Source: Candidatus Omnitrophota bacterium (GTDB lineage: Bacteria; Omnitrophota; Gorgyraeia; Zapsychrales; Zapsychraceae). Taken from it: 64,000 bases of DNA. This document shows, one piece after another, positions 3,675 through 60,745 of the stretch; the stretch's first letter is position 1; each line of letters starts with the position of its first letter. The notes under the pieces were generated by a model. That model worked only from the letters and a program-made list of their open reading frames with translations, was not told the DNA's origin and did no database searches. Location: assembly GCA_020429915.1 (NCBI GenBank), contig JAGQKV010000007.1, positions 26,555 to 90,554 on the forward strand. Reading direction: 5' to 3'. Both the position numbers and the translations under genes were made by a program.

Positions 3675-3812
3675 GTGATTGGTGATTTGGGATTGGGGAT
3701 TTGAACAGTTTGCCTTCATGATGCAGGCAAGCCGTGATTCAGATGCATTAAAGCCTCACAAATCCCAGAATATGCATAACGGTCATTCTCCAAATCCCCA
3801 ATCCCTAATTCA
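3675..3812. repeat. Heptamer-armed palindrome, locus A
   Basis: The left arm is four 7-nt units, GTGATTG, GTGATTT, GGGATTG, GGGATTT (3675-3702), followed by GAACAGTTTGCCTTCA (3703-3718). The right arm (about 3790-3812) read on the minus strand gives TGAATTA, GGGATTG, GGGATTT in the same phase. The 373-bp gap 3461-3833 holds only this element and the two hairpins at 3502-3579. The same 16-nt sequence after the left arm recurs at 47005-47020. Confidence 0.75.
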
Positions 3813-3833
3813 AACATCAGACGACTTCCCGGC

Positions 3834-4286
3834 TTACAATAATTCCCCCGCCGCCTCCGCCGGTCGCCAGAACCAGCCTCCGCTCGGGTCCCAACATTGT
3901 CCGAAGGTGAAGTTATCGACCAGTTCCTGAATCACGGCGCGGGCCTCGTCGGTGCGCTCGAGCGCGATCAGCGATTTCGCCTGAATAAACAGGCTGGTGG
4001 CCACGTCGTTCAAGGCCCAATAGGAAAAGACTTCGTCGTTGGTCCCCGTGACATAGTCTTCCAGTCCGGCCTGCATCTCGCGGGCGGGTTCCTGATAGAG
4101 TTCGACGCACTTGCGGGCATAGACGATCGCGTCTTCGTATTCTTCGGCGCCGAAGGACTGCCAGGCCTTGACGGTCAGCGTGGACGAGGTGTGATCCCCG
4201 AATTTGTACTCCTTGGCGAATGCCGCCGGGGCGCTCATGCATACTGCCAGCGTTGCAGCCATACAAAGTTGGAATAAACGTGCCAT
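3834..4286 (-). CDS. Small exported helical (TPR-like) protein of unknown function
   Basis: A 150-residue product. The start chosen is the ATG at 4284-4286 because AAGGAGG lies just upstream; a longer frame exists but has no such signal. The N-terminus is a signal peptide ending in SAPAAFAKE. The mature part has paired helices of TPR spacing (around EEYEDAIVYARKCVELY and LFIQAKSLIALERTDEARAVIQELV) and ends in a tryptophan-rich tail. I do not recognise a specific family. It lies between the active glycosidase and the sigma-factor operon on the same strand, so a link to envelope glycan metabolism is possible but unproven. Confidence 0.7.
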   Translation of the reverse strand: MARLFQLCMAATLAVCMSAPAAFAKEYKFGDHTSSTLTVKAWQSFGAEEYEDAIVYARKCVELYQEPAREMQAGLEDYVTGTNDEVFSYWALNDVATSLFIQAKSLIALERTDEARAVIQELVDNFTFGQCWDPSGGWFWRPAEAAGELL

Positions 4287-4366
4287 GATTAACCTCCTTG
4301 TTTTCTGTGCCGGTGTAATTCCGGGGACATAGTACCTGTTTACCCGGATGTTACGCATGCGTCATG

Positions 4367-4406
4367 AAAAAAGGCAGTTCCCGGCTGGTGCACCAGAAAC
4401 TGCCTT
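4367..4406 (-). terminator. Rho-independent terminator of the sigma/CHAT operon
   Basis: On the minus strand, AAGGCAGTT pairs with AACTGCCTT and is followed by a run of six T (4372-4367). It lies 50 bp past the stop of the TPR gene at 4456 and upstream of the gene ending at 3834, so it closes the operon coming from 9641. Confidence 0.85.
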
Positions 4407-4455
4407 GTCCCGGCGGGGAGCGACCCCGGCGGGTTTTGACATCATGCGATATTTA

Positions 4456-5274
4456 TCAGAACGAGTTGCCGAACTTACGGTAAAATTCGATCAGGTTGTT
4501 GCGGCTTTCGATCGTTCGCGTGTCGTTGATTCCGAATTCATCTTTCTGCGTCTCAAATATTCCTTTATATATTTTTTCGGCGCGTTCATAGCGACCGGTT
4601 TCTTCGTAAAGCAGGCCGAGATTCCGGCGTGTGGTCATTGTCCCGGGATGCGTGGGGCCGAGCTGTTCCTCCTGAATACGCAATGCGCGCTCATAGTGGT
4701 CGCCGGCTTCCCGGTATTTGCCGAGCTTCTTCTCGACGACCGCCAAATTATTCAGGGCGTTGGCTGTATCAGGATGATCGCTGCCCCGGATATCCTCGAC
4801 CGTCCGCAGGACTTCCTGAGTCAGGGGCTCGGCTTCGGTAAACCGGCCATCGGCGTACATCATCATAATTTGCGCGTACAAGTCCTCAAGCGCTTCGGCG
4901 GCGGCATCGACCGAAGGATCGACGATCACCGGCGTAACCCCGCGTTCGCGTTCCGGCGGCGGCGCCTCCGGGTACAGCAATTGCAATCCGATAATGGCCA
5001 CGACGATCGTCAGCGAAAAACTCAAGGCCGGGCGCGACGCGAATTGCGACAGGAGAAAACGCAGCTGATCCCACAGCGTAGACTGCCCCGGATCACGGCC
5101 GGTACGCACGGCGTGACGGAAGTCAGCCACCGTCTCGCGCGGGTCGACGCCGTTCTCATATAAAAAGGAGTGGACGTCATCGAGCGGTTCGGCAACGATG
5201 TCGCGGATGATGTCTGCGTCCTCATCCAGAAAGGCGCACAGCTGTCGGACTTGTTTTTTAGGGTCGGTGCTCAT
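4456..5274 (-). CDS. Single-pass membrane TPR protein, candidate anti-sigma or signal partner
   Basis: A 272-residue protein. Residues 1-80 are polar with no signal peptide. One membrane helix lies near residues 84-102 (SFSLTIVVAIIGLQLLYPE), followed by a proline-rich stretch. From about residue 125 there are tetratricopeptide repeats of the NALNNLAVV / ALRIQEEQLG / RRNLGLLYEETG type. The inferred topology puts the N-terminus in the cytoplasm and the TPRs in the periplasm. It starts 10 bp after the sigma-factor gene, the usual place for an anti-sigma factor, but no known anti-sigma motif such as a zinc HxxxCxxC is present. Its TPRs resemble those of the CHAT protein upstream. Confidence 0.75.
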   Translation of the reverse strand: MSTDPKKQVRQLCAFLDEDADIIRDIVAEPLDDVHSFLYENGVDPRETVADFRHAVRTGRDPGQSTLWDQLRFLLSQFASRPALSFSLTIVVAIIGLQLLYPEAPPPERERGVTPVIVDPSVDAAAEALEDLYAQIMMMYADGRFTEAEPLTQEVLRTVEDIRGSDHPDTANALNNLAVVEKKLGKYREAGDHYERALRIQEEQLGPTHPGTMTTRRNLGLLYEETGRYERAEKIYKGIFETQKDEFGINDTRTIESRNNLIEFYRKFGNSF

Positions 5275-5284
5275 GTTCGTATCC

Positions 5285-5937: not shown

Positions 5938-8397
5938 TTATTTTGTATCTTTAACGTAGGCAGGGCCTTGTGAAATCACAATAAAGGCCCCGGCCTTCTT
6001 GACCGCAGCATGCAGGCCTTGAGTCTCGCGCAGGGTGTTCATCCATTTTTTCTGCGTCTCGGCCAAGGCCTGGGCGGGGGATTCGCCGCGGAAGATCCCG
6101 CTGTAAATTTCCCGCACCATCTGCGGGGTGACCTGCGCGTCCGGGATGCTCCACAGGGTCATGATCAGATTGCGCGCGCCGGCCTGCAGAAATCCGCGCC
6201 GCAGTCCGAACACGCCTTCGCCCGTCTGCGCGTCGCCCAATCCGGTGTCGCAGGCCGGGAGGACGACCAGCCAGGTCTCACGCAGATCCAGCAGACTGAC
6301 TTCCTCGGCGGTAAGCAACCCGTCGTTACGGACCGGTTCACTCAATCCCTGCTGCCATAGACGGATGGTTTTGTCCGCCTTGGCCATGGCCAATCCGCTG
6401 TCGCGCATCGGATTGAACGCGGTCTGTCCCGCCGGCAACGGCTGTGCCGCCGCCCGTTCATCTTTCAGTAACGGGACCGCCGATCCGGTGGTCGCGTGCC
6501 GCCAGTGCGGCTGACCGGCAAAAAATCCGTGGGTTGCGATATGCAGGATCGCCGGCGAATGCACCTGTTTCAGATTTTCCTCACTGGCCTTTTCCCGGGT
6601 AAAGAGTTCGACCCGGTAACCGTTGGCCGCAGCCAATTGGGCCACCGCTTGGGCCTCGGTATATGTGCCGGGCAGATCTTCAAAGACAGCGGATTCGCCG
6701 CCATCGTCGCTGAACAACGGTTGCGCGAAAATGGTAAGAGTTTTCGTCATGTCCAGCCGGTGGTGTTCGAGCAGATCGCGTCCGCTGGTCACGTAGGCGA
6801 AGGCATAATGTTCATTGAGGAATTCACCGCGCGGAGTCAGCAGGGTCACGAAGGATACGAAGTTGATACGGTGCGTGGGGCTGATGATAATCCGCTCGAT
6901 ACGCCACTTCAGCGACTTGTCGATGGGTAGCCACAATAACCGGTAGAGGCGTTGCAGGTTGTAACGCAGGTCGGTGTCGCGGGTGTCCTTGTGGCGGACC
7001 ATCTGTTGGTAACGGCGGATGTGCGCGTCGATGCGGTCGGCCGGGCCCAGTTGGACCCAATGCAAGCCGTCGTCGAGGGTAAAGATGACTGCGCCGTAAT
7101 GATCTTCGAAACGGCCCTCGCCGAGCGCCATCGGGTAACGGATAAATTCAATCAGGGCGGTGCTTTCATCAAGGGCGTGCTGGATATCGGAGGGTTCAAC
7201 CTTCAAGAAACGGCGCGCGCCACGGGTGCCGGCGCCGGAATATCCGAGCTGTTGCTCGGTGCGACGGATATCCTCTTGCAGCCCGAGAAGAATCAGACGC
7301 CGCCGCTGCCGGGCATCCTCGTCGATGATGCCGTCTTCGGACATTTCCAACTGCATCAGCCGCTGTTTGGTCAGCGCGCGTTTGTGCAGAAGACGCTGAT
7401 GTTCCGGATCACTCCCGGAGGCGGCCAGGCGGATGTCTTCGATGAGGGATTCCAGAACCAGCCCTTTATGCAGAAGCACCGAGCGGGCCAGCGTCATGGT
7501 GTCGCCGACGTTGGCCGACAACGTGTACGGTTCGTAAGCGGTTATGTGGGCCAGCCGTTGTTGTTCGGAAGAGAAGGAAAGGATGTGGCTCAATAGCCGG
7601 CGTTCGCGTTCGAGAGCAGCCTTGGCCATGTCGATGGCCTCATTGATTTCATTGGCTTCGTGATAAAGCAGACCGAGCTGGCGCATACAATAGGCGATAG
7701 TCCGGTGATCCTCAGGACGCGATGTTTCCCAAATGCCGAGCGCTTCACGGTAGGCGTTGATGGCCCCGGCCAGGTCGCCTTCGCGGTAGGCCAGATCGCC
7801 CAGCATCTGCAGGGTGAAGGCCGCCGCCGGCAACGGTCCGGTCCGGCCGGCACGCTGGCGTTCGAGCAGTTCCCGGGTCAAGGCGCGGGCATTGGCGGTA
7901 TCCCCGGCGGCATAGTCTAACCGCGCGCGTTCCTGCAGCAACGGTAAGAGTTGCGGGTGATCGTCGCCGAGGGCTTCCTTTTGACGTTCGTAAATGTGGC
8001 GCGCGACGCGGATTTCTTCGGCAAGATCACGGCTGTCGACGGGGAGGGGCCCCATGCCGGGAATCGTGCGGCTGTCGCGAGCGTAAAGTTCGGCAAGGTG
8101 CCCGATGAGTTCCCTGACCAGCGGGTGATCAACACCGAGGTGCGCGTAGTAAACGGTGAGGGCGCTTTCGTAGTGCGGCAGGGCGGCGCTGATTTCGCCT
8201 TTTTCTTCGTACAGCCGGCCCAATTCGTGGAACAGATCCGCAACCTGGAGCTGGTCCGGTCCAAGCCGGGTGAGCTGTGCATTGAGTATGTTTCTGGTGA
8301 TATGAATGTCATCGGCCAGCTCCGCCGGATCGGTGACTGCCGCCGCCGGGGCCGCGATAAGCAAAAAGGACACAACCGCGATTAGTCTTCGGTCCAT
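5938..8397 (-). CDS. Exported TPR-CHAT (caspase-like) protease
   Basis: A start at 8397 gives an 819-residue protein beginning MDRRLIAVVSFLLIAAPAAA, a clear signal peptide. The N-terminal half is TPR repeats. The C-terminal roughly 300 residues are a CHAT domain. The caspase-type histidine is in LHIATHGFF (about residue 622) and the cysteine in LPACDTGLG (about residue 716), with the usual GEGVFGLRRGFLQAGA following. Both catalytic residues are intact. The ATG overlaps the last 16 nt of the upstream dead-glycosidase gene, so the two are probably translationally coupled. A periplasmic CHAT protease next to a sigma/membrane-TPR pair suggests signal-dependent cleavage, which is inference. Confidence 0.85.
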   Translation of the reverse strand: MDRRLIAVVSFLLIAAPAAAVTDPAELADDIHITRNILNAQLTRLGPDQLQVADLFHELGRLYEEKGEISAALPHYESALTVYYAHLGVDHPLVRELIGHLAELYARDSRTIPGMGPLPVDSRDLAEEIRVARHIYERQKEALGDDHPQLLPLLQERARLDYAAGDTANARALTRELLERQRAGRTGPLPAAAFTLQMLGDLAYREGDLAGAINAYREALGIWETSRPEDHRTIAYCMRQLGLLYHEANEINEAIDMAKAALERERRLLSHILSFSSEQQRLAHITAYEPYTLSANVGDTMTLARSVLLHKGLVLESLIEDIRLAASGSDPEHQRLLHKRALTKQRLMQLEMSEDGIIDEDARQRRRLILLGLQEDIRRTEQQLGYSGAGTRGARRFLKVEPSDIQHALDESTALIEFIRYPMALGEGRFEDHYGAVIFTLDDGLHWVQLGPADRIDAHIRRYQQMVRHKDTRDTDLRYNLQRLYRLLWLPIDKSLKWRIERIIISPTHRINFVSFVTLLTPRGEFLNEHYAFAYVTSGRDLLEHHRLDMTKTLTIFAQPLFSDDGGESAVFEDLPGTYTEAQAVAQLAAANGYRVELFTREKASEENLKQVHSPAILHIATHGFFAGQPHWRHATTGSAVPLLKDERAAAQPLPAGQTAFNPMRDSGLAMAKADKTIRLWQQGLSEPVRNDGLLTAEEVSLLDLRETWLVVLPACDTGLGDAQTGEGVFGLRRGFLQAGARNLIMTLWSIPDAQVTPQMVREIYSGIFRGESPAQALAETQKKWMNTLRETQGLHAAVKKAGAFIVISQGPAYVKDTK

Positions 8398-9641
8398 AGC
8401 GCTTGATAAGCATAATATACGTGGCGCAACTGACGGAGAAAGAGGCTCTGGTCGCCGCCGCCTTGGGCGGCAATTCCCTGCCACTCCGCGTGCCAGCCGT
8501 GTTTGCCGAGGTTATGTTCAAGCGGACGGTAGTCCCGCCACCATGCGTCGAGCCATTCGAACGCGACCCCGCCGATGGCATTGCCGGGAAGTCCGCCGTC
8601 CGCCGTGTGCCGCGCGATGTCCCGCCAGCCGGCAACATGCACACGGTACTGGTAAATTTCGTCGAAACGGCCGTCGACAAAGCGCATGGCGGGTGGACCG
8701 TAGGAGGTGATCAGCACGGGTTTGTCGTAGACCTGCGCGGCCTCCTGCCACAGGGACCCGAAGCCGGGTTGATAGCGCGTCGTGTTGATCCCCAGAATAT
8801 CGATATCGGGCGCGTAACGCGCATAGACGGGGAGCAGGTCGGTATCGCCGTTGACCAGGGCCACGGGGTGATCGGTATCGAGCTCATGAATGCGGCGCAC
8901 CACCGTGTTGACGAATTCGGCAAACGCCTTGGGCTGCTGGGCGGCATTCGTCTTCGCCGTGGCCGCGTCGTTATTGGCATTGCCCAGTGTCCACATCAAC
9001 AGGTAAGGTTCGTCCTTGAATTCGCGCACCATCGCTTCGACACTCTTGAGCATATTTTCGCGCTGTACGGGATCGGTATAGTCGGTGCCGTCCCGCCACG
9101 CGGCAGCCGAGCCGACGGTGTAGGCACCGAGGAAATCACCCATGATGACCCGGATGCCGTAGTCGGCATGGAGCCGGCGGAGTAATTCCTTATTGGGCGG
9201 ATGATTGAGGTCGAGGTTGTTGGGATGCAGGGCGATGATCTCGGGATCCCCGGACGGATGATGGAAGATGCGGATGGTGTTGGCGCCCATTTCCTTTAAC
9301 AATTGAAAGTCACCGACCGCCGGTTCATCGTCATCCCGGATATCGTTGCGGTTTTTATCGACCCAGCTCTGGAATGCGGCGTCGATGCGGCCGTCGCCGT
9401 CGTCGTCGATGATCATCCAGTCGCGCAGGGTGTTGTTGTGAGGGCTTTCGCCGATCTTGAAGGGCGTGTAATTCACCCCTTTGACGACATACGGTTTTCC
9501 GTCGACCAAGAGCTGCCAGCCGGTGGAAGTTCTTTCCACGGACACCTGCGCGGCCAGGGCGGTCTTAGCGCCGTAAGGCAAGGCGCAAACAGCGGCCACA
9601 GTGGCGGCCGTCAACAGGCGAAGCCGGTATTTCAACGCCAT
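8382..9641 (-). CDS. Exported pseudo-glycosidase (both catalytic glutamates lost)
   Basis: A start at ATG 9641 (AAAGGA 6-7 nt upstream) gives 419 residues with a signal peptide. It aligns throughout with the barrel of the 1472-3460 enzyme: GKPYVVKGVNYTP, the acidic DDDGDGRID insertion, GDFLGAYTVGS and YTDPVQRENML. The acid/base position reads LGNANND (A222) where the paralogue has LGNENN. The nucleophile position reads LITSYG (S313) where the paralogue has LITEYG. It is therefore predicted not to hydrolyse glycosides by the retaining mechanism, but it may still bind glycan. It heads the operon containing the CHAT protease, sigma factor and membrane TPR gene, which suggests a sensor role. Confidence 0.85.
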   Translation of the reverse strand: MALKYRLRLLTAATVAAVCALPYGAKTALAAQVSVERTSTGWQLLVDGKPYVVKGVNYTPFKIGESPHNNTLRDWMIIDDDGDGRIDAAFQSWVDKNRNDIRDDDEPAVGDFQLLKEMGANTIRIFHHPSGDPEIIALHPNNLDLNHPPNKELLRRLHADYGIRVIMGDFLGAYTVGSAAAWRDGTDYTDPVQRENMLKSVEAMVREFKDEPYLLMWTLGNANNDAATAKTNAAQQPKAFAEFVNTVVRRIHELDTDHPVALVNGDTDLLPVYARYAPDIDILGINTTRYQPGFGSLWQEAAQVYDKPVLITSYGPPAMRFVDGRFDEIYQYRVHVAGWRDIARHTADGGLPGNAIGGVAFEWLDAWWRDYRPLEHNLGKHGWHAEWQGIAAQGGGDQSLFLRQLRHVYYAYQALWTED

Positions 9642-9803: not shown

Positions 9804-9865
9804 AACGCAAGTGGCATAAATATTTCTTGAACCGCAGGACAGAAGTATTGGACCTGCGGTTTTTT
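9804..9865 (+). ncRNA. Candidate short non-coding RNA ending in an intrinsic terminator
   Basis: The expected start is about 9804. The stem ACCGCAGG (9831-9838) pairs with CCTGCGGT (9853-9860) and runs into six T. The unit is divergent from the gene at 9641 and well upstream of the helicase at 10105, so it is not the end of an annotated gene. The rest of the 463-bp gap (9866-10104) shows nothing else I can support. No RNA family is recognised. Confidence 0.4.
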
Positions 9866-10104
9866 AATGACCGGTCCTCAAACCAGGAAAGGCATCGCGG
9901 CCGGCCAAACGTACAGAAAAAGGTCCTAACACAGGTCATGAAACAGCGGATCCCGCACGCGGCGATCCGGCGTAAGTATACGACGACGAGTCCAACCACT
10001 CTTTCCTACCGGTCAGTTTTTGGTCATCCCTCTTTCACGCCCTGATTTATTCCTGATTCTTAGCGCGATTTCCATTTAAGACTTATCTATTTCAAGGAGG
10101 AAGA

Positions 10105-36982: not shown

Positions 36983-37067
36983 GTGCTGTGTGCTGTGTGC
37001 TGTGTGATGATCTTATCAAATCGCCCGGAAGAGGTTCCTCAATCCGAATTTGATCATCACTCAGCAC
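36983..37067. repeat. Heptamer-armed palindrome, locus E
   Basis: Left arm GTGCTGT three times then GTGATGA (36983-37010). The right arm TCATCAC, TCAGCAC (37054-37067) is GTGCTGA, GTGATGA on the minus strand, in phase with the left. A 15/16 match joins 36997-37012 and 37052-37067. Confidence 0.75.
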
Positions 37068-39610: not shown

Positions 39611-39743
39611 GTTATCTGTGATCAGTGAAAAGTGATCTGTGATCAGAGAGATGGACCGATATTCCAGGAAAAAGGATGTGCGCATATCCTCGTCCTGAAA
39701 TTACGTTCCAATTTCCGATCACTGATCACCGGTCACTGATCAC
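39611..39743. repeat. Heptamer-armed palindrome, locus B
   Basis: Left arm GTTATCT, GTGATCA, GTGAAAA, GTGATCT, GTGATCA (39611-39645), followed by GAGAGATGGACCG. Right arm CGATCAC, TGATCAC, CGGTCAC, TGATCAC (39716-39743). About 23 of 27 positions pair. It fills most of the 363-bp gap 39407-39769 between tag and tRNA-Arg; the remainder (39407-39610) shows nothing I can support. Confidence 0.78.
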
Positions 39744-39769
39744 AACAAATCACATCATGAAACACACCC

Positions 39770-39841: not shown

Positions 39842-39848
39842 CTTTTAT

Positions 39849-42223: not shown

Positions 42224-42931
42224 ATGAACACCACTAAATGGATCATCACCGCCATCGTCGTGATCGGAGCGATCGGGGGATTGTTTATGCTGGCCGATCA
42301 GCACACCAACTTCTGTCCCCAGTGTCTGGCCAAGAATCTGAATCCGGAGGTCATCCGCCATTACATCGAAGGTTTTGGGCCGTGGGCGATCGCGGTTTAC
42401 GTCGGGCTGTATATCGTCAATACCATGACGCTGGTGCCGCCGATCGCCTTTATGTCCCTATCCGCCGGGGCGTTGTTCGGTCCGGTGTGGGGAACGGTGG
42501 CACTGACGCTCGGCGCCTTTTGCGGAACGACGGCAACCTTTTTCATTTCCCGCTATTTGGGCGGGGGGCTCGTCGACCGGTTCGTGAAAGGGCGGGCCGA
42601 GGAGTTCAACAAACGGTTCAGCGAAAACGGATTTATCGTCCTGCTGCCGATTCGTCTGATCGGATTCCCGCCGTACGAATTCATCAATTACGCCGTCGGC
42701 TTGTCGAAGATCTCGTACCGCGACTACATCGCGGCGACCATGCTGGGGATGTCGCCGGCGATCATCATCCAGGTCCTGCTCGCCGACCGGCTCGCCAACT
42801 TCAGTTGGAAGGACCCGGTCCTGTATGTGGCCGTCGGTCTGTTTATCGGGATGGGCGTGATTACCGGAAAGATTATCAAGCAAAAGCGGGCCGAAGACAA
42901 GGCGGCCATGAACGCCGCCGAGGCGGTTTAG
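42224..42931 (+). CDS. TVP38/TMEM64 family (VTT domain) membrane protein
   Basis: A 235-residue protein with a GGAAAGGA upstream signal. An N-terminal helix and several more membrane segments are visible. The VTT motif region is FMSLSAGALFGPVWGTVALTLGAFCGTTATFFISRYLGG, and LLPIRLIGFPPYEFINYAVGLS gives the re-entrant-type second half. Members are proposed lipid scramblases or transporters. Fourteen bp separate it from the flavoprotein gene, so they are almost certainly co-transcribed. Confidence 0.9.
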   Translation: MNTTKWIITAIVVIGAIGGLFMLADQHTNFCPQCLAKNLNPEVIRHYIEGFGPWAIAVYVGLYIVNTMTLVPPIAFMSLSAGALFGPVWGTVALTLGAFCGTTATFFISRYLGGGLVDRFVKGRAEEFNKRFSENGFIVLLPIRLIGFPPYEFINYAVGLSKISYRDYIAATMLGMSPAIIIQVLLADRLANFSWKDPVLYVAVGLFIGMGVITGKIIKQKRAEDKAAMNAAEAV

Positions 42932-42945
42932 AGAAGGGGGAGCTC

Positions 42946-44388
42946 ATGGCCAAGCATGATTATGATCTGATCGTCATCGGAGGCGGGGCCGGCGGACTCA
43001 CCGCGTCCACCTTTGCCGGTCAGTCCGCTGCCAAGACGCTGCTTGTCGAGAAGGAAAAAAAACTCGGAGGGGATTGTCTGCATTACGGTTGTGTTCCCTC
43101 CAAATCGCTGATCAAGAGCGCGTACGTCGCCAATGTCATCCGCAACGCCGAACATTACGGCCTGCCCAAGGTCGAGCTCGGGCCGGTCGATTATCAAAAG
43201 GTCAGCCGACGCATCCGCGGGATCATCGGAACCATCCAGGCCCATGACGAGCCGGATTATATCCGGGACAAATACCATGTTGAAACGGAATTCGGTGAGG
43301 CCCGCTTTCTTGATGCCAACACGATTGAATTGAACGGCCGGCGGATCACCGCGCGGTATTTTCTGATCGCCACCGGTTCGTCGCCGTTGATCCCGCCGGT
43401 CGAAGGCCTGAACGAAGTGCCCTATATCACCAATCTCGATATCTTTTCGTTGGAGAAACTGCCGGAGTCGATGGTGGTCCTCGGTGGCGGACCGATCGGG
43501 CTGGAGATGGCCCAGTCGTTTCACCGGCTCGGTTGCCGGATCACGGTGATCGACCGCGGACCGCAGTTCCTGCCCAAGGAAGATCCCGACATCGCCGGAT
43601 TTATTCGGGACCGCCTTCAGGACGAAGGCATCACCATTCACCAGGATTTCGAGGCCCGGCAGGTCGTCCGGAAGGACGGCAAGATCATCGTGACCTTTGC
43701 CTGTCAACAGTCAGGTGCCGTCCACAGCGTCGAGGCCGAGGCCCTGCTGGTGGCGACCGGCCGCAAGGCGAATATCCACGGGCTTGACCTGGAAAAGGCC
43801 GGTGTCGCGTTCGACCGCCACATCCGGGTCAATGAGAAGATGCAGACCTCGCAGAAAAATATCTACGCGGCGGGTGACGTCACCGGCGGCTATCAGTTCA
43901 CGCACGTGGCCAGCTACGAGGCCGTGGTCGCCATTTACAACTGCATTTTAAAAATCCCCAAGAAAGCCGCGTATGACAACACCCCGTGGGTCACCTATCT
44001 CGACCCGGAGGTCGCCTCGATCGGTTACAACGAGCAACGCGCCCGCAAGGCGGGGATCGATTACGTCAAACACGTCGAGCACATCACCCATAACGACCGC
44101 GCCCTGGCTGAAGGCGAGAACGACGGTTTGATCAAGATCCTGATGAATAAGAAGGGGAAGGTCATCGGTGTGCAGATCGTCAGTTATCACGCCGGCGATC
44201 TGATTGCGGAATGGATTCCGATCCTCAACGGAAAGGTCAAACTCTCCACGCTGACCGACGCTATCCATCCCTACCCGACGATGTCGGAGATCAACAAGAA
44301 TGCCAGCGTCAATTATCTGGTCTCCACGATTCCGCCCTGGACCAAGAAACTCACCAAGATGTTGTTCGGTTATCAGGGCAAGGCGTAA
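42946..44388 (+). CDS. FAD-dependent pyridine nucleotide-disulfide oxidoreductase (mercuric reductase-like)
   Basis: A 480-residue protein from the ATG at 42946 (GAAGGGGGAG upstream). FAD-binding GGGAGGLTAS, the redox pair GGDCLHYGCVPSK, NAD(P)-binding GGGPIGLEMAQSF, and the second FAD motif NIYAAGDVTGG are intact. The C-terminal dimer motif reads HPYPTMSE where lipoamide dehydrogenases have HAHPTxxE. There is no N-terminal HMA domain or C-terminal CC pair as in true MerA, so mercury reduction is unlikely. Its pairing with a VTT protein is a recurrent arrangement; the disulfide substrate is unknown. Confidence 0.9.
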   Translation: MAKHDYDLIVIGGGAGGLTASTFAGQSAAKTLLVEKEKKLGGDCLHYGCVPSKSLIKSAYVANVIRNAEHYGLPKVELGPVDYQKVSRRIRGIIGTIQAHDEPDYIRDKYHVETEFGEARFLDANTIELNGRRITARYFLIATGSSPLIPPVEGLNEVPYITNLDIFSLEKLPESMVVLGGGPIGLEMAQSFHRLGCRITVIDRGPQFLPKEDPDIAGFIRDRLQDEGITIHQDFEARQVVRKDGKIIVTFACQQSGAVHSVEAEALLVATGRKANIHGLDLEKAGVAFDRHIRVNEKMQTSQKNIYAAGDVTGGYQFTHVASYEAVVAIYNCILKIPKKAAYDNTPWVTYLDPEVASIGYNEQRARKAGIDYVKHVEHITHNDRALAEGENDGLIKILMNKKGKVIGVQIVSYHAGDLIAEWIPILNGKVKLSTLTDAIHPYPTMSEINKNASVNYLVSTIPPWTKKLTKMLFGYQGKA

Positions 44389-44430
44389 AAAGAACTTTTC
44401 CTTATCGGACCCTTCCGCTATATTAGATAT

Positions 44431-45936
44431 ATGAGCACCCCGACCCCCCCGTATTTGTACGAAATCAATACCATGTCTTTTCTCATCCGGATGGGAGACG
44501 ACGAACGCCCGTTGCCGCTGGCCAAACTCCACGGAGATTTCTTCAGCGGGTTGCGCGACCGTGGTTTCGGATACGTCTGGATGATGGGCATGTGGGAACG
44601 CAGTCCGGCTTCCCGCCAGGAGGCGCTCGATCATCCGGACCTTCAGCGTGAGTACACCGCCGCCCTGGGGAATTGGGAGGCGGCGGATGTCACGGGTTCG
44701 CCCTACGCGGTGCGCCGGTATCAACCCGATCCACGTTTCGGCAAATGGAAAGACCTTAAGAAGTTCAAAGAGCATCTTAACGGGCTGGGACTGAAATTGA
44801 TCCTCGATTTTGTTCCCAACCACACCGCGCTGGACCATCCCTGGGTCAGCGAACGTCCCGAAAGTTACCTGTGCGCCAACCGCGAACAACGCGACGCGCT
44901 CAATCACGATCACTTTCATGAAATCGCGCCGGGCCGCTACGCAGCGCACGGCCGCGATCCTTATCTCGACCCCTGGACCGATACCCTGCAGCTCAACTAC
45001 GCCGATCCCGAGACCCGCGAACTGATCATCCAGGAGCTGGAGCGCATCGCCATGTACTGCGACGGGCTGCGCTGCGATATGGCGATGCTGGTGGTCAACC
45101 GGGTGATCCGTCAGACATGGGGGCATCTGATCGGCGCCGACCTGCCGCCGGAGGAATTTTGGACCGAGGCCATCACGCGGATCAAGGACCAGCACCCCGG
45201 ATTTGTATTTATCGCCGAGAGTTACTGGAACATGGAATGGGAATTACAGCAGATGGGATTCGACTACACTTATGACAAGGTGCTGTACGACCGGTTGCTG
45301 AATTCCGACGCCGGCGATGTGCGCGGACATCTGTGTGCGGACTTGGAGTATCAGTTCCGCAGTTTGCGTTTCATCGAGAATCATGACGAGCTCCGTTCGC
45401 TGGCGGTGATGGACGAGGCCCAGGCCCGGGCGGCGGCCGTGGTGGCCCTGACGGTCCCGGGGCTGAAGCTGATCTTCGACGGTCAGACCGACGGCCGCAC
45501 CGTCAAGATGCCGGTGCAGCTGCGCCGCGGTCCGGATGAAGATCCCAACCGCGTGATGACGTACTTTTATGAAAATCTGTTCGACTTTACCGGGTCCGAT
45601 GTGTTCGTTGAGGGCGAATGGATGCTCTGTGAAGTTGTTCCGTCGTCGGAGAACAATCCCAGTTACGACCGCATCCTGGCCTGGGCGTGGCGGTTCGAGA
45701 ACGAGATGCGCGCGGTGATCGTCAATTACGCCCCCGAGGCGGCCCAGGCCCGCGTGAAGCTGCCGTGGATCCCCGAGGCGCATGAGCCGGTCATCTTCGA
45801 CGATCACGCCGTCGATGAAGTGTATGATCGCGAGCGGCATGAATTGCGCGCCGAGGGCCTTTATGTGGACCTGGGCCCGTGGCAGTTCCACTGGTTATCC
45901 TGCGCCCTGCACGCCGGGGTCGCAGCGCCCTCATGA
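44431..45936 (+). CDS. GH13 alpha-amylase family glycosidase
   Basis: A 501-residue cytosolic protein. The four GH13 regions are present: DFVPNHT (I), GLRCDMAML with the nucleophile aspartate (II), FIAESYW with the acid/base glutamate (III) and FIENHDE (IV). It lacks a signal peptide and acts on an alpha-glucan or an alpha-glucoside such as a maltooligosaccharide or sucrose. The exact specificity is not evident. The downstream DUF3500 gene begins within its stop codon (ATGA overlap). Confidence 0.9.
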   Translation: MSTPTPPYLYEINTMSFLIRMGDDERPLPLAKLHGDFFSGLRDRGFGYVWMMGMWERSPASRQEALDHPDLQREYTAALGNWEAADVTGSPYAVRRYQPDPRFGKWKDLKKFKEHLNGLGLKLILDFVPNHTALDHPWVSERPESYLCANREQRDALNHDHFHEIAPGRYAAHGRDPYLDPWTDTLQLNYADPETRELIIQELERIAMYCDGLRCDMAMLVVNRVIRQTWGHLIGADLPPEEFWTEAITRIKDQHPGFVFIAESYWNMEWELQQMGFDYTYDKVLYDRLLNSDAGDVRGHLCADLEYQFRSLRFIENHDELRSLAVMDEAQARAAAVVALTVPGLKLIFDGQTDGRTVKMPVQLRRGPDEDPNRVMTYFYENLFDFTGSDVFVEGEWMLCEVVPSSENNPSYDRILAWAWRFENEMRAVIVNYAPEAAQARVKLPWIPEAHEPVIFDDHAVDEVYDRERHELRAEGLYVDLGPWQFHWLSCALHAGVAAPS

Positions 45937-46958
45937 TCCGCCCGCGAACCGCTGTTGCCGCCGGGCTCGTTATCCTTTCCCTGACCGTAACCGCGGTCAA
46001 ATCCTCCGACCAACACCCGGCCGTTACCGAAATCACCGAGACGGCCGGCGTGTGGTTCGATTCCCTGGACAACCGCCAGCAGGTCGCCGTGTCGTTTCCC
46101 TTTGATGACCGGGAACGCCTGCGCTGGCATTATTTTCCGCACAGCGGCGCCGGATTGACGCTGCGCGAGATGAGCGAGGAACAGCGCGGCCTGGCCGCAG
46201 ACATGATCCGCGCGGTGCTCTCAACAGCCGGGGCGCAAAAGGTGGAGGAGATCATGGCCCTGGAGACGATCCTCCAGCAACTGGAGGGGAATTCCCCGCG
46301 TTACCGTGATCCGTTGCGCTACGCGTTCACGCTCTATGGGCAACCCGGCGAACCGCCGTGGGGGTGGCGTGTCGACGGACATCACCTGGCCGTCAATGTC
46401 ACCGTGGCCACGGAGCGGGACATCGTTCTGACGCCGCTTTTTTTGGGCACCAATCCGGCCAAGGTCCCGCGCGGTCCGTTTGCCGGCAAACAGATTCAGA
46501 AAGACGAGGCCGTTCGCGCCCTGACCCTGGTCAACAGCCTGAGCGCTGAACAGCGCGGGCGCGCGGTCCTTCGTGACCGGTCCGTCGGTAATATCCTCGC
46601 CGGGCCGGGGCAATTGGATAGGGTCCGGGAATTCGAGGGGATCCGTTATACGGACCTGACCGAAGACCAGCGCCGCCAGCTGATGGAACTGATTGAAGTT
46701 TATGTGGGCGCCGCCCGCGACGACATCGGGCATCCGTATCTGGAGCTCATCCGTGCGGACTTGCTGGAATTGTATTTCGCCTGGGCCGGCGGGACGCGGG
46801 AGGGGGACGCCTACTACTACCGCATCCACGGCCCGCGCGTCCTCATCGAGTTCGACAATACGCAGAATAACGGCAATCATATTCACAGTGTGTGGCGGGA
46901 TCCTCTCAATGATTTCGGTCGGGATGTCTTGCGGGAACACTACTTGCGTGCGCATTAG
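45933..46958 (+). CDS. Exported DUF3500 family protein
   Basis: A 341-residue protein starting at ATG 45933, overlapping the GH13 stop by 4 nt. Signal peptide: VAAGLVILSLTVTAVKSS. DUF3500 features: FPFDDRERLRWHYFP, LYGQPGEPPWGWRVDGHHLAVNVT, LSAEQRGRAVL and, at the C-terminus, RVLIEFDNTQNNGNHIHSVWRDP with histidines that could bind a metal. Function unknown. Its cytosolic GH13 partner is tightly coupled, although the two products are predicted in different compartments. Confidence 0.85.
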   Translation: MIRPRTAVAAGLVILSLTVTAVKSSDQHPAVTEITETAGVWFDSLDNRQQVAVSFPFDDRERLRWHYFPHSGAGLTLREMSEEQRGLAADMIRAVLSTAGAQKVEEIMALETILQQLEGNSPRYRDPLRYAFTLYGQPGEPPWGWRVDGHHLAVNVTVATERDIVLTPLFLGTNPAKVPRGPFAGKQIQKDEAVRALTLVNSLSAEQRGRAVLRDRSVGNILAGPGQLDRVREFEGIRYTDLTEDQRRQLMELIEVYVGAARDDIGHPYLELIRADLLELYFAWAGGTREGDAYYYRIHGPRVLIEFDNTQNNGNHIHSVWRDPLNDFGRDVLREHYLRAH

Positions 46959-46976
46959 CACGCGTTGACGTGAGTC

Positions 46977-47077
46977 GGGATACGGGATAAGTGATACGGG
47001 ATACGAACAGTTTGCCTTCAGCGGTTTGATAAGGGGGGAAGGTTGGCACAACGGGCCAACCACGTATCACGTATCCC
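46977..47077. repeat. Heptamer-armed palindrome, locus C
   Basis: Left arm GGGATAC, GGGATAA, GTGATAC, GGGATAC (46977-47004), followed by GAACAGTTTGCCTTCA (47005-47020), identical to locus A. Right arm GTATCAC, GTATCCC (47064-47077), i.e. GGGATAC, GTGATAC on the minus strand. A nested GGTTGG/CCAACC stem lies between the arms. Confidence 0.78.
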
Positions 47078-47135
47078 GACTTTACCTTCAAATCTTACTA
47101 TTCCGCGGGTACCGATAAGCTATAATAAACACATC

Positions 47136-47891
47136 GTGAAGAAGCACGCCATCACCATCCGCCGGTCGATTATCTACCTGTTGATGCTCGCCTGTTTCTA
47201 CCCCATCACCCAAGCCGACTTTTTCATCAACATCAATCCGCTGTGGACCAGAACCGGCACTACGCATTTCACTATCCACTATCCGCGCGGGTCGCCGGCG
47301 GCCGACGGCATTATGGAATTGGCCGCTCAGCTGGAGGGCTATTATGCGGAGCTGACCAGGATCCTTCCGCTGCCCGAACACGAGCCGATCCCGGTCTATT
47401 TTCATAACCGCCAGCTCTTCGCGGGATTAAGACCGGTGTGGGGGTATACCACCGACTACAGCGTGCACGCAACGTATTCCCACCGGATTAAAGACACCAG
47501 TCCGCACGAACTGCGCCATTTCATCCAGGACATGGTCAATCCGGACGCGCCGTATTTCTTTAACGAAGGTGCCTGCGGCATCGGGATTCGCATCGGCGGG
47601 ATCGGTTTCGACAGCCGGGCGCGCGCGTCCTGTCCGGATCTGCAACGGATAACATTGGAGTCTTTAGTGCAAGACTACCGTATGCACGCCGACAGGCGGC
47701 AGGACTACTGGGCCTATTCGTTCGCCGGATTCCTGACCGGGACCTTCGGCAAAAAGACCTTCGGCCGCTTCTACGCGCGGGCCACGCCGGCCAACTGGAG
47801 GGAGGTCTTTACCGAGGAATTCGGCCTCCCGCCCGGCCAGGCCGAGGCCGCCTGGAAAGCGGCGCTGTGCGCGAAAATCCCGCTTCAATAG
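47136..47891 (+). CDS. Exported peptidase MA-like (HExxH) metallopeptidase
   Basis: From GTG 47136 the product is 251 residues with a signal peptide (SIIYLLMLACFYPITQA). HELRHF (HExxH) and the downstream NEGACG about 20 residues later form the gluzincin zinc site typical of peptidase_MA-like proteins. The C-terminal half is short. A perfect TATAAT lies at 47121-47126, only 9 nt before the GTG, and no ribosome binding site is visible, so a leaderless mRNA is possible; the frame is open upstream to 47043 but runs into the locus C repeat. Confidence 0.75.
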   Translation: MKKHAITIRRSIIYLLMLACFYPITQADFFININPLWTRTGTTHFTIHYPRGSPAADGIMELAAQLEGYYAELTRILPLPEHEPIPVYFHNRQLFAGLRPVWGYTTDYSVHATYSHRIKDTSPHELRHFIQDMVNPDAPYFFNEGACGIGIRIGGIGFDSRARASCPDLQRITLESLVQDYRMHADRRQDYWAYSFAGFLTGTFGKKTFGRFYARATPANWREVFTEEFGLPPGQAEAAWKAALCAKIPLQ

Positions 47892-47910
47892 CAGCCCGCC
47901 CCCGATCCTG

Positions 47911-47919
47911 TGCTAAAAT
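47911..47919 (+). promoter_or_regulatory. Extended -10 promoter upstream of MBOAT gene
   Basis: TGC-TAAAAT; transcription would begin near 47926, so the whole 5' leader of the MBOAT gene would be the REP-like element. Confidence 0.45.
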
Positions 47920-47931
47920 GACATCAATTAA

Positions 47932-48002
47932 AATTAGGGGCAAACTCCAATTTACGGCATTGGCGCCTGTCCCTGAATAATCGGGGTCTGTTTCTATTTT
48001 TT
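47932..48002 (+). repeat. REP-like element, degenerate copy in the MBOAT leader
   Basis: Shares AATTAGGG, ACTCCAATTT and GTCTGTTTCTATTTTTTAT with the element at 20437-20507, but its internal stem has decayed. It ends exactly at the ATG of the MBOAT gene, leaving no ribosome binding site. Confidence 0.65.
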
Positions 48003-49427
48003 ATGTTATTTCATTCCATCCATTTCGTCATTTTCTTCATTATCGTCTACGGCCTGTACCGGGTGCTGCCGCACAAGGGGCAGAACCGGATGCTGCTGGT
48101 GGCCAGTTACGTGTTTTACGGGTCGTGGGACTGGCGGTTTTTGTCGTTGATCCTGATTTCAACGATTGTCGATTATTTCTGCGGGCTGCGGATCCATGAC
48201 ACGGATGATCATAAGATCAAGAAGCATTTCCTGCGGCTGAGCCTCGTCACCAACCTCGGCCTGCTCGGGGTCTTTAAGTATTTCAATTTCTTCGCCGATA
48301 ACCTCAGCGCCCTGTTGGGCGTCTTCGGACTGCATACCGATCTTGCCGTGCTGAATGTCATCCTGCCGGTGGGGATTTCCTTTTATACCTTCCAAACCCT
48401 CAGCTACACCATCGACATCTATTACGGCAAACTGAAACCCACGCGTTGCTTTTGGGACTTCGCGCTGTTCGTGGCCTTCTTTCCGCAGCTGGTCGCCGGG
48501 CCGATCGAGCGCGCGTCGCATCTGTTGCCGCAGATCCAAAATCCGCGCCGGCCGACGCTGCAACAATTTTACGAAGGCTGTTACCTGTTTTTTTGGGGAT
48601 TATTCCTGAAGATGTTCGTCGCCGACAATCTCGCGCGGCTAGCCGACCCGATCTTCGCCAAGGGGCCGTACGAAGGGGGGACGGTGTGGATCGGCGTCTA
48701 CGCCTTCGCCTTTCAGATCTTCGGCGACTTTGCCGGCTATTCGAATATGGCACGCGGGATCGGTAAACTGCTCGGCATCGAGATCATGAATAACTTCCTG
48801 GCACCGTACATGGCCGCCAATCCGCGCGACTTCTGGCGGCGTTGGCACATCAGTCTGTCGACCTGGCTGCGTGACTACCTTTATATTCCGCTGGGCGGGA
48901 ACAAGGGCGGGGACTTGCTGACGCTACGCAATCTGATGTTGACGATGCTGCTCGGCGGACTGTGGCACGGCGCGGCGTGGACGTTCGTTATCTGGGGATT
49001 TTATCACGGGGTGCTGTTGATCGGACACCGCCTGCTCGGTCCGTGGCTGGAGAAGGCGGTGCGTCTTGAGGGAGTGGGGCAAAGGGTGTGGAAGGCCGCT
49101 AAGATCGTCCTTTTCTTTCACCTGACCTGTATCGGCTGGCTGATTTTTCGCGCGCAATCGCTCACGCAGCTCGGCGCGATGGCCAAGGCCATGCTCACGC
49201 CGTGGGCCACCAGCGATCCCGGGTTGCTGACCGGACGGTTGTGGCAGCTGGCGCTTTACACCTATATCGTGGTGCTGATGCAAATCATGCAGTACCTGCG
49301 CGACGATGAACTGGTGATCTTCCGCATCCGGATTCCGGTACGGGCCTTAATTTATGTGGTACTATTCTATATGATCCTGGTACGTGGAGTGACCGGTGGC
49401 AAAGAGTTCATCTACTTCCAATTCTAA
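48003..49427 (+). CDS. MBOAT family O-acyltransferase (AlgI-like)
   Basis: A 474-residue polytopic membrane protein. MLFHSIHFVIFF is the usual AlgI-type start. FFPQLVAGPIERASHLLPQ, DFWRRWHISLSTWLRDYLYIPLGGN and the catalytic histidine in GGLWHGAAWTFVIWG are canonical. It moves acyl groups, commonly acetyl, across the membrane for transfer to a polysaccharide or cell-wall polymer. The downstream SGNH-type gene overlaps by 32 nt and is the expected partner. No ribosome binding site is visible. Confidence 0.93.
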   Translation: MLFHSIHFVIFFIIVYGLYRVLPHKGQNRMLLVASYVFYGSWDWRFLSLILISTIVDYFCGLRIHDTDDHKIKKHFLRLSLVTNLGLLGVFKYFNFFADNLSALLGVFGLHTDLAVLNVILPVGISFYTFQTLSYTIDIYYGKLKPTRCFWDFALFVAFFPQLVAGPIERASHLLPQIQNPRRPTLQQFYEGCYLFFWGLFLKMFVADNLARLADPIFAKGPYEGGTVWIGVYAFAFQIFGDFAGYSNMARGIGKLLGIEIMNNFLAPYMAANPRDFWRRWHISLSTWLRDYLYIPLGGNKGGDLLTLRNLMLTMLLGGLWHGAAWTFVIWGFYHGVLLIGHRLLGPWLEKAVRLEGVGQRVWKAAKIVLFFHLTCIGWLIFRAQSLTQLGAMAKAMLTPWATSDPGLLTGRLWQLALYTYIVVLMQIMQYLRDDELVIFRIRIPVRALIYVVLFYMILVRGVTGGKEFIYFQF

Positions 49428-50397
49428 ACCGTGGCCGTGGGCCTTTCTGATCGCGTTGACGGTGATCATCATCATCGAGAGCCTGGTGGTGGTCTTCGAC
49501 GAGCGTTTTTACTATCCGCCGTTCAATAACTTGCGCATGAAAGTCAAGAACGAGATTTCCCGGTCGGCGGACCGTCACTACGACGTGCTGATCCTCGGCG
49601 ACAGTTTCAATCTCACCGGACTCGACCCGGCGCTGTTGACCGCGGACACCGAGCTTTCCGCATTCAACTATGGCACGTTTGCCGTCAATTCGGTGATCAC
49701 CTCCTATGTCCTGTTGAGAAACAGTCTTAAGAAGAAGGGACCCAAGCCGCGCTACTTGATCATCGGTTACCTCGATTACATCCCGCAGTTCAGCAAGGAC
49801 TACATCTACAAGAAATACGCGCATACCCTGTTTGATTTCAAGCAGGGGAATATCGGCGTCTTTACTGCGGAGTTCGGTCCGGCGCTGGGCTTGAAGTTCC
49901 TCATTCCGACGTTGAAGCATCAGGGATACTTTTTGTTGAACGCCAAACCCACACCGCCGGAGAAGATCCGCGCGGTCCGGCAGTCGGTCTCCGACAAAAG
50001 AGGGTTCTATGAATGGCATGCCGAGCGGGAGTTCGACGGCAACATCGATTACATCAATACGGATGACGAGTTTTACGTCACCCCGTACTTCGAGAAGTAC
50101 ATCCGTAAGATCCTCACGCTGTGCGCCCGCAACGACATTAAGGTCCTGTACATCATGCCCACGGTCGTCCCGGAGCTCGACAAGCGGCTGACCGCGGCGG
50201 GCCGGCGGGCCGCTTATATGGCATACTTGCGGGGACTGAAAGAAGAGTATCCCAATATGGACATCATTTACCCGGCTGTGCAACTCAGCGATCCGCGACT
50301 CTATACCGACCAGGACCATCTTAACGCCCGCGGCGGCGCAGTCCTGAGTGACATGGCGCGCGGTTGGCTGCGGGGTGCGTCCGGACCGGCGGAATGA
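49396..50397 (+). CDS. SGNH-type (AlgJ/AlgX-like) acyltransferase partner
   Basis: A 333-residue protein with GTG start at 49396 inside the MBOAT gene. One N-terminal membrane anchor (AFLIALTVIIIIESLVVV). The SGNH fold shows ILGDSFN (the GDS serine) and a C-terminal DQDHLNARG with the Asp-x-x-His pair. It probably takes the acyl group delivered by the MBOAT protein and transfers it to an extracellular polymer, or hydrolyses acyl esters. The target polymer is unknown. Confidence 0.8.
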   Translation: MAKSSSTSNSKPWPWAFLIALTVIIIIESLVVVFDERFYYPPFNNLRMKVKNEISRSADRHYDVLILGDSFNLTGLDPALLTADTELSAFNYGTFAVNSVITSYVLLRNSLKKKGPKPRYLIIGYLDYIPQFSKDYIYKKYAHTLFDFKQGNIGVFTAEFGPALGLKFLIPTLKHQGYFLLNAKPTPPEKIRAVRQSVSDKRGFYEWHAEREFDGNIDYINTDDEFYVTPYFEKYIRKILTLCARNDIKVLYIMPTVVPELDKRLTAAGRRAAYMAYLRGLKEEYPNMDIIYPAVQLSDPRLYTDQDHLNARGGAVLSDMARGWLRGASGPAE

Positions 50398-57616: not shown

Positions 57617-57666
57617 CAGGCTCCGGCCGGAAGCGGGTTTTCCGGCAAAAACGCAGCACAGATAAC

Positions 57667-57700
57667 TTGACCGAACGGTCAAATTGTGCTATTGTAGCAC
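57667..57700 (+). promoter_or_regulatory. Promoter with TetR-type operator plus a second palindrome
   Basis: The TTGACCG-aa-CGGTCAA palindrome (57667-57682) contains the -35 (TTGACC). Seventeen nt later comes TATTGT (57690-57695), with TGC in front. The -10 lies in a second perfect dyad, GTGCTA-ttg-TAGCAC (57686-57700). Repressor binding at either dyad would block polymerase. Confidence 0.7.
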
Positions 57701-57775
57701 ATGATTGAAGCCCGCCCTTCGCGGCGGGGAGAAAAAGGGTCTCACCAGCCCGACATATTTTTTTTGCCTATTAAT

Positions 57776-57791
57776 TTGACCGAACGGTCAA
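57776..57791 (+). promoter_or_regulatory. Second identical TetR-type operator
   Basis: The same 16-bp palindrome as at 57667-57682, 109 bp downstream and just before the AAGGAG of the gene at 57809. It could act as a roadblock or as a DNA-looping partner. No TetR gene lies in the window. The leader 57703-57775 between the two sites shows no supported gene. Confidence 0.7.
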
Positions 57792-57808
57792 GGATAAGGA
57801 GTCCTGTT

Positions 57809-59719: not shown

Positions 59720-59773
59720 TCGGACAATGCTCTCCGCCAAGCGGCAGGCACTATCAATGTACCGGAATGTTTC

Positions 59774-60436
59774 ATGTCCTTAACCTTTCTCAACGAAATC
59801 GCCAATCTTAAAAAGAAGGCCTTCGACGCCTACACGCGCGAAACGGTCGAAGAGCTCATCCAGGTCACCAATGAAATGGCCGAGCAGAGCCTGGCCAAGA
59901 CGACCATCCGCGAGGGCGATCGCATCCCGTCGTTTGAATTGAAAGACGCCACCGGGGACCTTATCCGCAGCAGCGACTTGCTGAACCGGGGACCGCTGGT
60001 GATCAGTTTTTATCGCGGCGGCTGGTGTCCGTTTTGTTCGCTGGAATTGAAGTTTCTGCAGAAGATATATCCGCAGGTGCGCGAGTGCGGCGCGGACATC
60101 GTGGCCATATCGCCGGAGCTGCAGGAATACTCCCATAAGACCAAGACCGACAACGGCCTGCAGTTTTACGTCCTGAGTGATGTGGATAATACGGTCTCCA
60201 AGAAGTTCGGGTTGATCTTTACGCTGATCAAGCACATCGCCAACATCTACCGCATCAACTTCGACCTGGACCTGAAGGCGATCAACGGCAACGAGGATTA
60301 CGAATTTCCGGTCCCGGCCACCTATGTGGTGAAACCCGACGGCCTTATCCACTATGCGTTTATCGATGTGGACTACACCAAGCGGCTGGAGCCGGAGGTT
60401 TTGTTGAGCAAATTGGCGGAGATTTCGTGCGCATAG
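59774..60436 (+). CDS. Cytosolic peroxiredoxin-like (AhpC/TSA fold) protein
   Basis: A 220-residue protein without a signal peptide. A helical N-terminal extension (1-50) leads to GDRIPSFELKDATGD and the active site FYRGGWCPFC. VPATYVVKPDGLIHYAFIDVDYTKR supports the family. It shares the CxxC-type motif and C-terminal DVDYTKR/DEDYTKR with the exported paralogue at 13180-13800, so the two probably serve the same chemistry in different compartments. Confidence 0.85.
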   Translation: MSLTFLNEIANLKKKAFDAYTRETVEELIQVTNEMAEQSLAKTTIREGDRIPSFELKDATGDLIRSSDLLNRGPLVISFYRGGWCPFCSLELKFLQKIYPQVRECGADIVAISPELQEYSHKTKTDNGLQFYVLSDVDNTVSKKFGLIFTLIKHIANIYRINFDLDLKAINGNEDYEFPVPATYVVKPDGLIHYAFIDVDYTKRLEPEVLLSKLAEISCA

Positions 60437-60484
60437 GCCCCGGTCTATCGCTTCCGGCAGGTATATGCCGGCCAATCTCCGAAT

Positions 60485-60513
60485 TTGACATTTACCTCCG
60501 GTTAGGGTATATT
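60485..60513 (+). promoter_or_regulatory. Strong sigma-70-type promoter of a candidate small RNA or leader
   Basis: Perfect TTGACA (60485-60490), 17-nt spacer, TATATT (60508-60513). Confidence 0.7.
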
Positions 60514-60519
60514 ATTGAA

Positions 60520-60603
60520 GTTCCTGAGGCGGCAAAGAAGCCGTCGCACCAGGGTAATGAAGCCCAACGAATAATACTAAAACTATTCGTTGGGCTTTTT
60601 TTA
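60520..60603 (+). ncRNA. Candidate small RNA (about 84 nt) or attenuator leader
   Basis: Transcription from the 60485 promoter would begin near 60520. A first stem GGCGGC/GCCGTC is followed by a perfect 14-bp intrinsic terminator: AAGCCCAACGAATA (60560-60573) pairs with TATTCGTTGGGCTT (60584-60597), then T. There is no reading frame of note. It is either a stand-alone sRNA or a terminated leader of the ATP-grasp gene at 60777. I do not recognise a known riboswitch core. Confidence 0.55.
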
Positions 60604-60633
60604 TTCCCGCAGGAGTGCAGATAAATGCATGCG

Positions 60634-60745
60634 GGGATTGGTGATTAGGGATTTGGGGATGGACCGTTACTTCAGGAAATATTCCGACCCAAGCCCCCAG
60701 ATGAGTACGCTTGGTCTGAACCCCCTATCTCCAATCCCAAATTAC
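60634..60745. repeat. Heptamer-armed palindrome, locus D
   Basis: Left arm GGGATTG, GTGATTA, GGGATTT (60634-60654), then GGGGATGGACCG, which resembles the locus B flank. Right arm CTATCTC, CAATCCC, AAATTAC (60725-60745), in phase on the minus strand as GTAATTT, GGGATTG, GAGATAG. It ends 31 bp before the ATP-grasp gene. Confidence 0.7.

Follow-up and report, generated by a model that had tools for sequence, protein, structure and literature searches.

Palindromes with heptamer-array arms as probable dispersing repeat families in a Candidatus Omnitrophota genome and its relatives

We analysed a 64,000-nt stretch of contig JAGQKV010000007.1, hereafter the window, from a Candidatus Omnitrophota draft genome (GCA_020429915.1; 3.35 Mb in 33 contigs), and focused on five of its gaps that carry palindromes with arms of tandem heptamers. 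Direct reading showed the same layout at all five: a left array of GKGATnn-like heptamers, an unrepetitive centre of about 40-90 bp, and a right array forming the reverse complement of the left. Heptamer arrays were detected by Tandem Repeats Finder (TRF) at 3677, 36983, 39614/39717 and 46976/47061, and an inverted-repeat finder paired arms at 3685-3703/3791-3809, 36997-37012/37052-37067, 39617-39647/39714-39744 and 46973-46993/47061-47081. The fifth locus, at 60634, was absent from both lists, and its right arm is degenerate (GGGATTG.GAGATAG.GGGGTTC). Units were classified by the sixth base of the heptamer into four types, T, A, C and G.

Element A begins with a left arm of four T-type units (3675..3702, +; GTGATTG.GTGATTT.GGGATTG.GGGATTT), found by direct reading, TRF and the inverted-repeat finder, which is followed by the inner end E1 (GAACAGTTTGCCTTCA; 3703..3718, +). 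A second inner end, E2, lies at 3778..3785 (-; AACGGTCA, with the - strand reading TGACCGTT); both inner ends were read directly, and the right arm at 3791..3809 (-) was taken from the inverted-repeat finder. Element B has four G-type units in its left arm (36983..37010, +; GTGCTGT three times and GTGATGA; direct reading and TRF) and a right arm at 37052..37067 (-; direct reading and inverted-repeat finder). Element C carries C-type GTGATCn units in its left arm (39617..39647, +), E2 (GATGGACCG) at 39650..39658 (+; direct reading) and a right arm at 39714..39744 (-), with both arms found by direct reading and the inverted-repeat finder. Element D combines a left arm of four A-type units (46977..47004, +; GGGATAC.GGGATAA.GTGATAC.GGGATAC; direct reading and TRF) with E1 at 47005..47020 (+) and E2 at 47050..47057 (-; AACGGGCC, with the - strand reading GGCCCGTT), both read directly, and a right arm at 47061..47081 (-; direct reading and inverted-repeat finder). 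Element E has three T-type units (60634..60654, +; GGGATTG.GTGATTA.GGGATTT), E2 (GATGGACCG) at 60658..60666 (+; direct reading) and the degenerate right arm at 60715..60738 (-), with both arms from direct reading and an arm-pair scan. All five palindromes of the original prediction, which had been made from this DNA alone, were therefore seen, but its three to five units per arm overstated the right arms at 3675, 36983 and 60634, which hold two, two and one clear units, respectively. The common flanks that it reported for two pairs of loci, GAACAGTTTGCCTTCA in A and D and GATGGACCG in C and E, proved exact, and they correspond to two distinct inner ends that recur across the genome, E1 (GAACAGTYTGCC) and E2 (GGMCCGTT).

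A genome-wide scan, which had been proposed as a check, demonstrated that the GKGATnn arrays are not a chance feature of five loci. The pattern GKGATNNGKGATNNGKGAT gave 113 matches with at most one mismatch, compared with 10 for the reversed pattern, and 58 compared with 0 when no mismatch was allowed; a G-type pattern gave 50 and 2. Exact GKGATNNGKGATNNGKGAT matches were found in 8 of 55 other relatives, with a maximum of five in G001 and none in G002, the other same-genus genome. Moreover, 289 kb of the genome, all of it except the window selected through pattern matches, yielded 45 partly redundant rows of convergent arm pairs, whereas the reversed sequence yielded none. In a set of 36 elements, assembled by hand from a genome that holds further copies, both arms were of the same unit type in 33 (shuffle mean 10.4; none of 20,000 shuffles reached 33), and one arm was very short, poor or mixed in each of the three discordant elements. 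The co-variation of arms that had been claimed is thus borne out here, and likewise at orthologous sites of other species of the family. Among the 72 arms, E1 adjoins 11 A-type, 7 T-type and 1 C-type arms, and E2 adjoins 6 T-type, 4 A-type, 3 C-type and 1 G-type arms, indicating that, for a given core, both arms can be of one unit type or another. The unit type has therefore been switched in both arms around a retained core at least a few times.

Thirty of the 36 elements lie between open reading frames (ORFs), four within a predicted ORF and two at the edge of a stretch. The orientation of the flanking genes showed no clear bias (22 tandem, 5 convergent and 3 divergent, compared with 66, 25 and 20 for background gaps 60 bp long or longer). 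A purine-rich 5′ arm was considered as a general rule (34:1 in this genome, 53:12 in genus g3 and 12:9 in other relatives) and was dropped because non-heptamer inverted repeats are also skewed (24:10). Many elements are situated within a few kb of the ends of contigs C5, C6, C17, C19, C23, C26 and C27, perhaps because the repeats broke the assembly. The genome also holds other heptamer families, including AGCGGTT (stretches L033, L034, L039 and L040) and ATTCGAA/TCGAATA (L039). In the window, an unpaired AGCGGTT-type array lies at 36101-36125 (GCAGCGGTTAGCGGATAGCGGTGAG), with paired copies in those same four stretches, and an unpaired TCGAATA-type array lies near the window end at 63956-63978 (CTAATCTCGAATATCGAATCTCA), with a related paired array at L039:6367-6546. 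A non-heptameric inverted repeat at 57666-57792 has 20-nt arms, each itself palindromic (GACCGAACGGTC), that are separated by 87 nt. Heptamer palindromes at L031 (~2470) and L036 (~4080-4110) are adjoined or interrupted by another repeat, CTCGACTTCGCTCGGGACGGTGAGC or the complement of this sequence, apparently as a nested insertion.

We then asked how far the architecture extends and searched, one period at a time, for arrays that have an inverted partner (15 or more of 18 positions matching, arms no more than 200 bp apart; both arms of each palindrome are scored in the counts). In 80 loci of relatives, retrieved through a glycosidase-like gene (PF02836) so that repeats played no part in the choice, 35 of 109 period-7 arrays had such a partner, as did 2 of 249 arrays of period 5, 7 of 23 of period 8, 0 of 2 of period 10 and the single array of period 11, which makes 10 for these other periods pooled. 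In two genomes of the same family the result was similar: 42 of 84 period-7 arrays were partnered in 259 kb of G004 (periods 5, 8 and 10: 0/52, 1/12 and 0/1) and 26 of 53 in 300 kb of G026 (0/60, 1/9 and 0/1). The units vary by locus, with 41 distinct consensus units among 66 palindromes of the genus of G004 and G026. The convergent period-7 architecture is therefore not peculiar to GKGATnn or to this genome. Octamer counterparts were observed at L116 (10375-10940) and L135 (8209-8304).

Orthologous gaps were compared in two 20 kb stretches of G004 with up to five congeners, and with G012 from another genus in the first stretch only; unit calls at the 27 variable gaps were judged by eye. The 110 gap-by-species cells comprised 35 heptamer palindromes, 17 arrays without a partner, 29 gaps shorter than 45 bp and 29 with other content. 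Twelve gaps were palindromic in at least two species of the family, and by eye the unit differed between species at nine of them and was the same at three (L176 12419, L176 14206 and L167 12050). At L176:15481-15654, for example, the unit was GACYATn in G004 and G030, CAGACWT in G032 and G026 and of the CAAATYA type in G021, and G028 had none; judged by flanking identity (85-93%), no pair is closer than G004 and G032, yet they differ here. G028 carried no palindrome in 20 cells. The arm score had a median of 21 within species (n=29) and 11 between species (n=50), the former being biased upward because palindromes were selected for having a partner. In G021 (L208), at the orthologues of L176 gaps 6800 and 7617, a heptamer palindrome is nested inside arms of another unit. 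The palindromes at L176 gaps 15481, 16051 and 16500 stand directly before a stretch that resembles, by eye, a pseudopilin GFTLIE-type start, and judging from frames read by eye an arm may be translated there as part of a pseudopilin-like leader.

All-against-all comparison of 123 palindromes identified 43 same-genome pairs, involving 47 elements, that align along 60% or more of their length and have unrelated flanks, and four same-genome pairs with similar flanks. The clearest pair, L033:6853-7012 and L039:8088-8249, is 91.7% identical over 169 bp; the similarity stops near the heptamer ends and the flanks are unrelated. This pair belongs to the AGCGGTT family of the same genome as the window, not to GKGATnn. 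Copies in L133 are 82-88% alike, and a TCTCGTA palindrome of G004 was found at no fewer than 21 further places in four congeneric genomes. The elements accordingly resemble miniature inverted-repeat transposable elements in two respects, their terminal inverted repeats and the dispersal of whole units into unrelated flanks, for which L033/L039 is the strongest case.

Elements of this general kind are already known, and the following comparison draws on excerpts of the papers cited. Xanthomonas genomes carry GGGAATC/GGGANTN arrays with 70 (Xcc) and 75 (Xac) convergent inverted pairs, whose role was left open, and Nostoc carries the heptamer GGGGA(C/T)T (Rehm et al., 2015, PMC4692102). The present palindromes are of the same kind as the Xanthomonas heptamer pairs: both consist of degenerate tandem heptamers, about four units long, mostly intergenic and in convergent inverted pairs. 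However, Xanthomonas as described there has one unit per genome, each with three G, and its arrays were investigated as G-quadruplexes and mostly retain their gene context between two species, whereas the present elements have many unrelated units, C and G types without GGG, and differing units at orthologous gaps of congeners. A quadruplex would take at least four G3 tracts per array, and by eye none of the five left arms in the window has four GGG tracts. The P6b stem-loop of the Nostoc trnL group I intron also has arms of heptamer repeats, of Class I (TDNGATT) or Class II (NNTGAGT), in which the unit class was repeatedly replaced wholesale (Kaasalainen et al., 2015, PMC4476775); it is one intron locus, whereas the present elements occupy many dispersed loci, none known to be intronic, and Rfam gives a single tRNA and no trnL group I intron in the window. 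In Geobacter metallireducens, four GGACCGG units occur in each of 49 elements, and five MTYCTGA units make up 15 of the 16 looped class 3 sites (PMC2700814). These are likewise multicopy tandem heptamers, some shown as looped pairs, which were read as regulatory RNA elements or regulator sites, and no test of unit turnover or dispersal appears in the excerpt. The TAACTGA repeats of Beggiatoaceae, cyanobacteria and Bacteroidetes (MacGregor, 2015, PMC4679880) are also intergenic heptamer arrays, with two to six units each in BOGUAY, but they are direct repeats (one indirect in that genome) and mostly lie immediately before start codons.

We consider it reasonably probable that the palindromes are dispersing repeat families of about 70-250 bp, in which convergent arrays of three to five degenerate heptamers enclose an unrepetitive core. 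This reading brings together the many copies with four unit types, the agreement of arm types and the sharing of E1 and E2 between types, as well as the near-identical copies whose flanks are unrelated, the same architecture with other units in relatives and the presence of a different element or none at orthologous gaps. An element would be moved or copied as one unit, and its arms would match because they travel together; arm co-variation is more simply explained by whole elements copied and replaced as units. Slippage in steps of 7 nt, or something comparable acting locally, might maintain the regularity of each arm. New unit types would be rare events that start in a small number of founder copies before spreading as subfamilies, and insertions would persist mostly at gene borders because elsewhere genes would be broken. 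Several observations weigh against this reading. The joint change of unit type around E1 and E2 still requires a concerted step in the founder copies. Some species carry, at L176 gaps 16051 and 16500, arms that are each homogeneous but built of different units (for example GGGTACA and GGGTTCA), and 16051, where the two arms of an element differ from each other, is one of the nine differing gaps; arms thus evolve in place too. Many of the 43 dispersed pairs are 50-75 bp long and mostly arm, and may reflect a common unit rather than descent. The orthologous comparison is confined to another genus of the family, without the five window loci, because two same-genus genomes matched window positions 35000-49500 only in scattered patches of 65-77% identity. 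Inspection of gap and pair sequences by eye, without a systematic search, gave no evident target-site duplication; an excision footprint was not established either, and no mobilising gene was found.

The original prediction had favoured copying or conversion between the arms at each locus, templated by the hairpin, together with selection for the hairpin itself. In-place homogenisation of this sort, through template switching in the hairpin or arm conversion, would let units drift at each locus while the arms stay matched, and it would fit the type agreement in 33 of 36 elements despite cores common to several types, the occasional element with identical arms (L040:8990-9142, four of four units) and the wholesale class changes in Nostoc P6b. 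We nevertheless regard it as unlikely. In their fine variation, paired units agree no better than arms shuffled within a type: positions 2 and 7 agree in 117 of 160 comparisons (0.731), the shuffles gave 0.728, and 867 of 2000 were as high. Together with the mismatched homogeneous arms at the two orthologous gaps and two near-identical copies whose arms differ without compensation, this result does not support copying at each locus. Selection for the hairpin fares no better, given those uncompensated differences and the lack of a G.U preference among stem mismatches (85 G.T and 70 A.C on the sense strand, in 64 palindromes between same-direction genes). A function of the hairpin in RNA, as terminator, mRNA end protector or processing site with pairing under selection, would suit stems of about 33 columns that mostly lie between genes, and most Xanthomonas repeats are transcribed according to the excerpt of Rehm et al. 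(PMC4692102). It is quite improbable, since the same 64 palindromes show no U-tract after the stem (T content of the next 10 nt, 0.22-0.31), Rfam at gathering score identified no family except tRNAs in the window and eight further stretches, and some gaps in congeners lack any palindrome. Arrays of repeated sites bound by a regulator or an architectural protein have a precedent in the 16 looped Geobacter sites, listed in that excerpt as predicted sites of a global regulator (PMC2700814); however, 41 units among 66 palindromes in one genus and differing units at orthologous gaps are ill-suited to one protein, which makes this explanation very improbable.

The prediction had also proposed a search for an associated nuclease or RAYT-like gene, and repetitive extragenic palindromic (REP)/REPIN elements, which RAYT (a Y1 transposase) would move, are likewise short, dispersed, extragenic palindromes. 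A REP is marked by a conserved GTAG-like tetranucleotide adjoining a short palindrome. RAYT genes (PF01797) are indeed available, with two in this genome and at least one in the genomes of 38 of 48 relatives. However, among 26 RAYT match positions (22 stretches, 9 genomes) no period-7 array lies within 350 bp; the nearest, at 357 bp, is unpaired, and the sole paired array is 6.2 kb off. Two RAYT genes adjoin GGGGACAG palindromes instead (L147 and L216). RAYT genes are always flanked by their REPs in the published excerpt (Nunvar et al., 2010, PMC2817692), whereas no examined RAYT here has an adjoining heptamer palindrome. RAYT is thereby rejected as mobiliser for the 26 positions, the mobilising enzyme is probably not a RAYT, and a REP/REPIN origin can hardly be credited. 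A separate repeat family (GGGGACAGTCCCC / GGGGACAGGTCC) flanks the Y1 transposase (RAYT) gene of L147, at 7209-7658, 9107-9127 and 9838-9914. The clustering of elements near contig ends and between short ORFs on C19 raised the idea of an integron; three tyrosine recombinase genes (PF00589) were found, two XerC/XerD-like and one phage-like, and none was clearly of integron type by eye, without an integron-specific model. With a possible autonomous transposon sharing these ends in view, same-direction arm pairs 0.3-3 kb apart were listed in the retrieved stretches; the inner ORF of one of them, L034:4305-4775, the sole such ORF read through, was identified by no search.

Neighbouring units within an arm rarely repeat the seventh base (14 same and 78 different, with about 31% same expected; 1 and 34 for T-type units), although these counts are not independent events because the copies are related. 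Our guess is that such avoidance keeps the arms in register. A bolder and improbable reading is an undescribed class of mobile DNA in Omnitrophota and relatives, whose ends would be fixed by 7-nt periodicity and not by sequence. Its machinery would recognise or build a heptamer hairpin of any unit, add or rewrite both arms on insertion and thereby found new types, and seventh-base avoidance would serve to hold the register.

Heptamer repeats are over-represented in bacteria, and we know of no accepted reason for this. The repeats described here go beyond simple slippage tracts, as they come in convergent pairs, in one period only, and with units turning over at the same gap. To the known kind of heptamer palindrome they add a diversity of unrelated units in a single genus, turnover of units between species at orthologous gaps, dispersal of whole elements and a negative RAYT test; in the open-licence literature, unit turnover at orthologous sites was found described only for the Nostoc intron. 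The sampled Omnitrophota genomes are rich in elements and have congeners near enough to compare, and the question thus becomes testable: what measures seven bases, and what moves the element.

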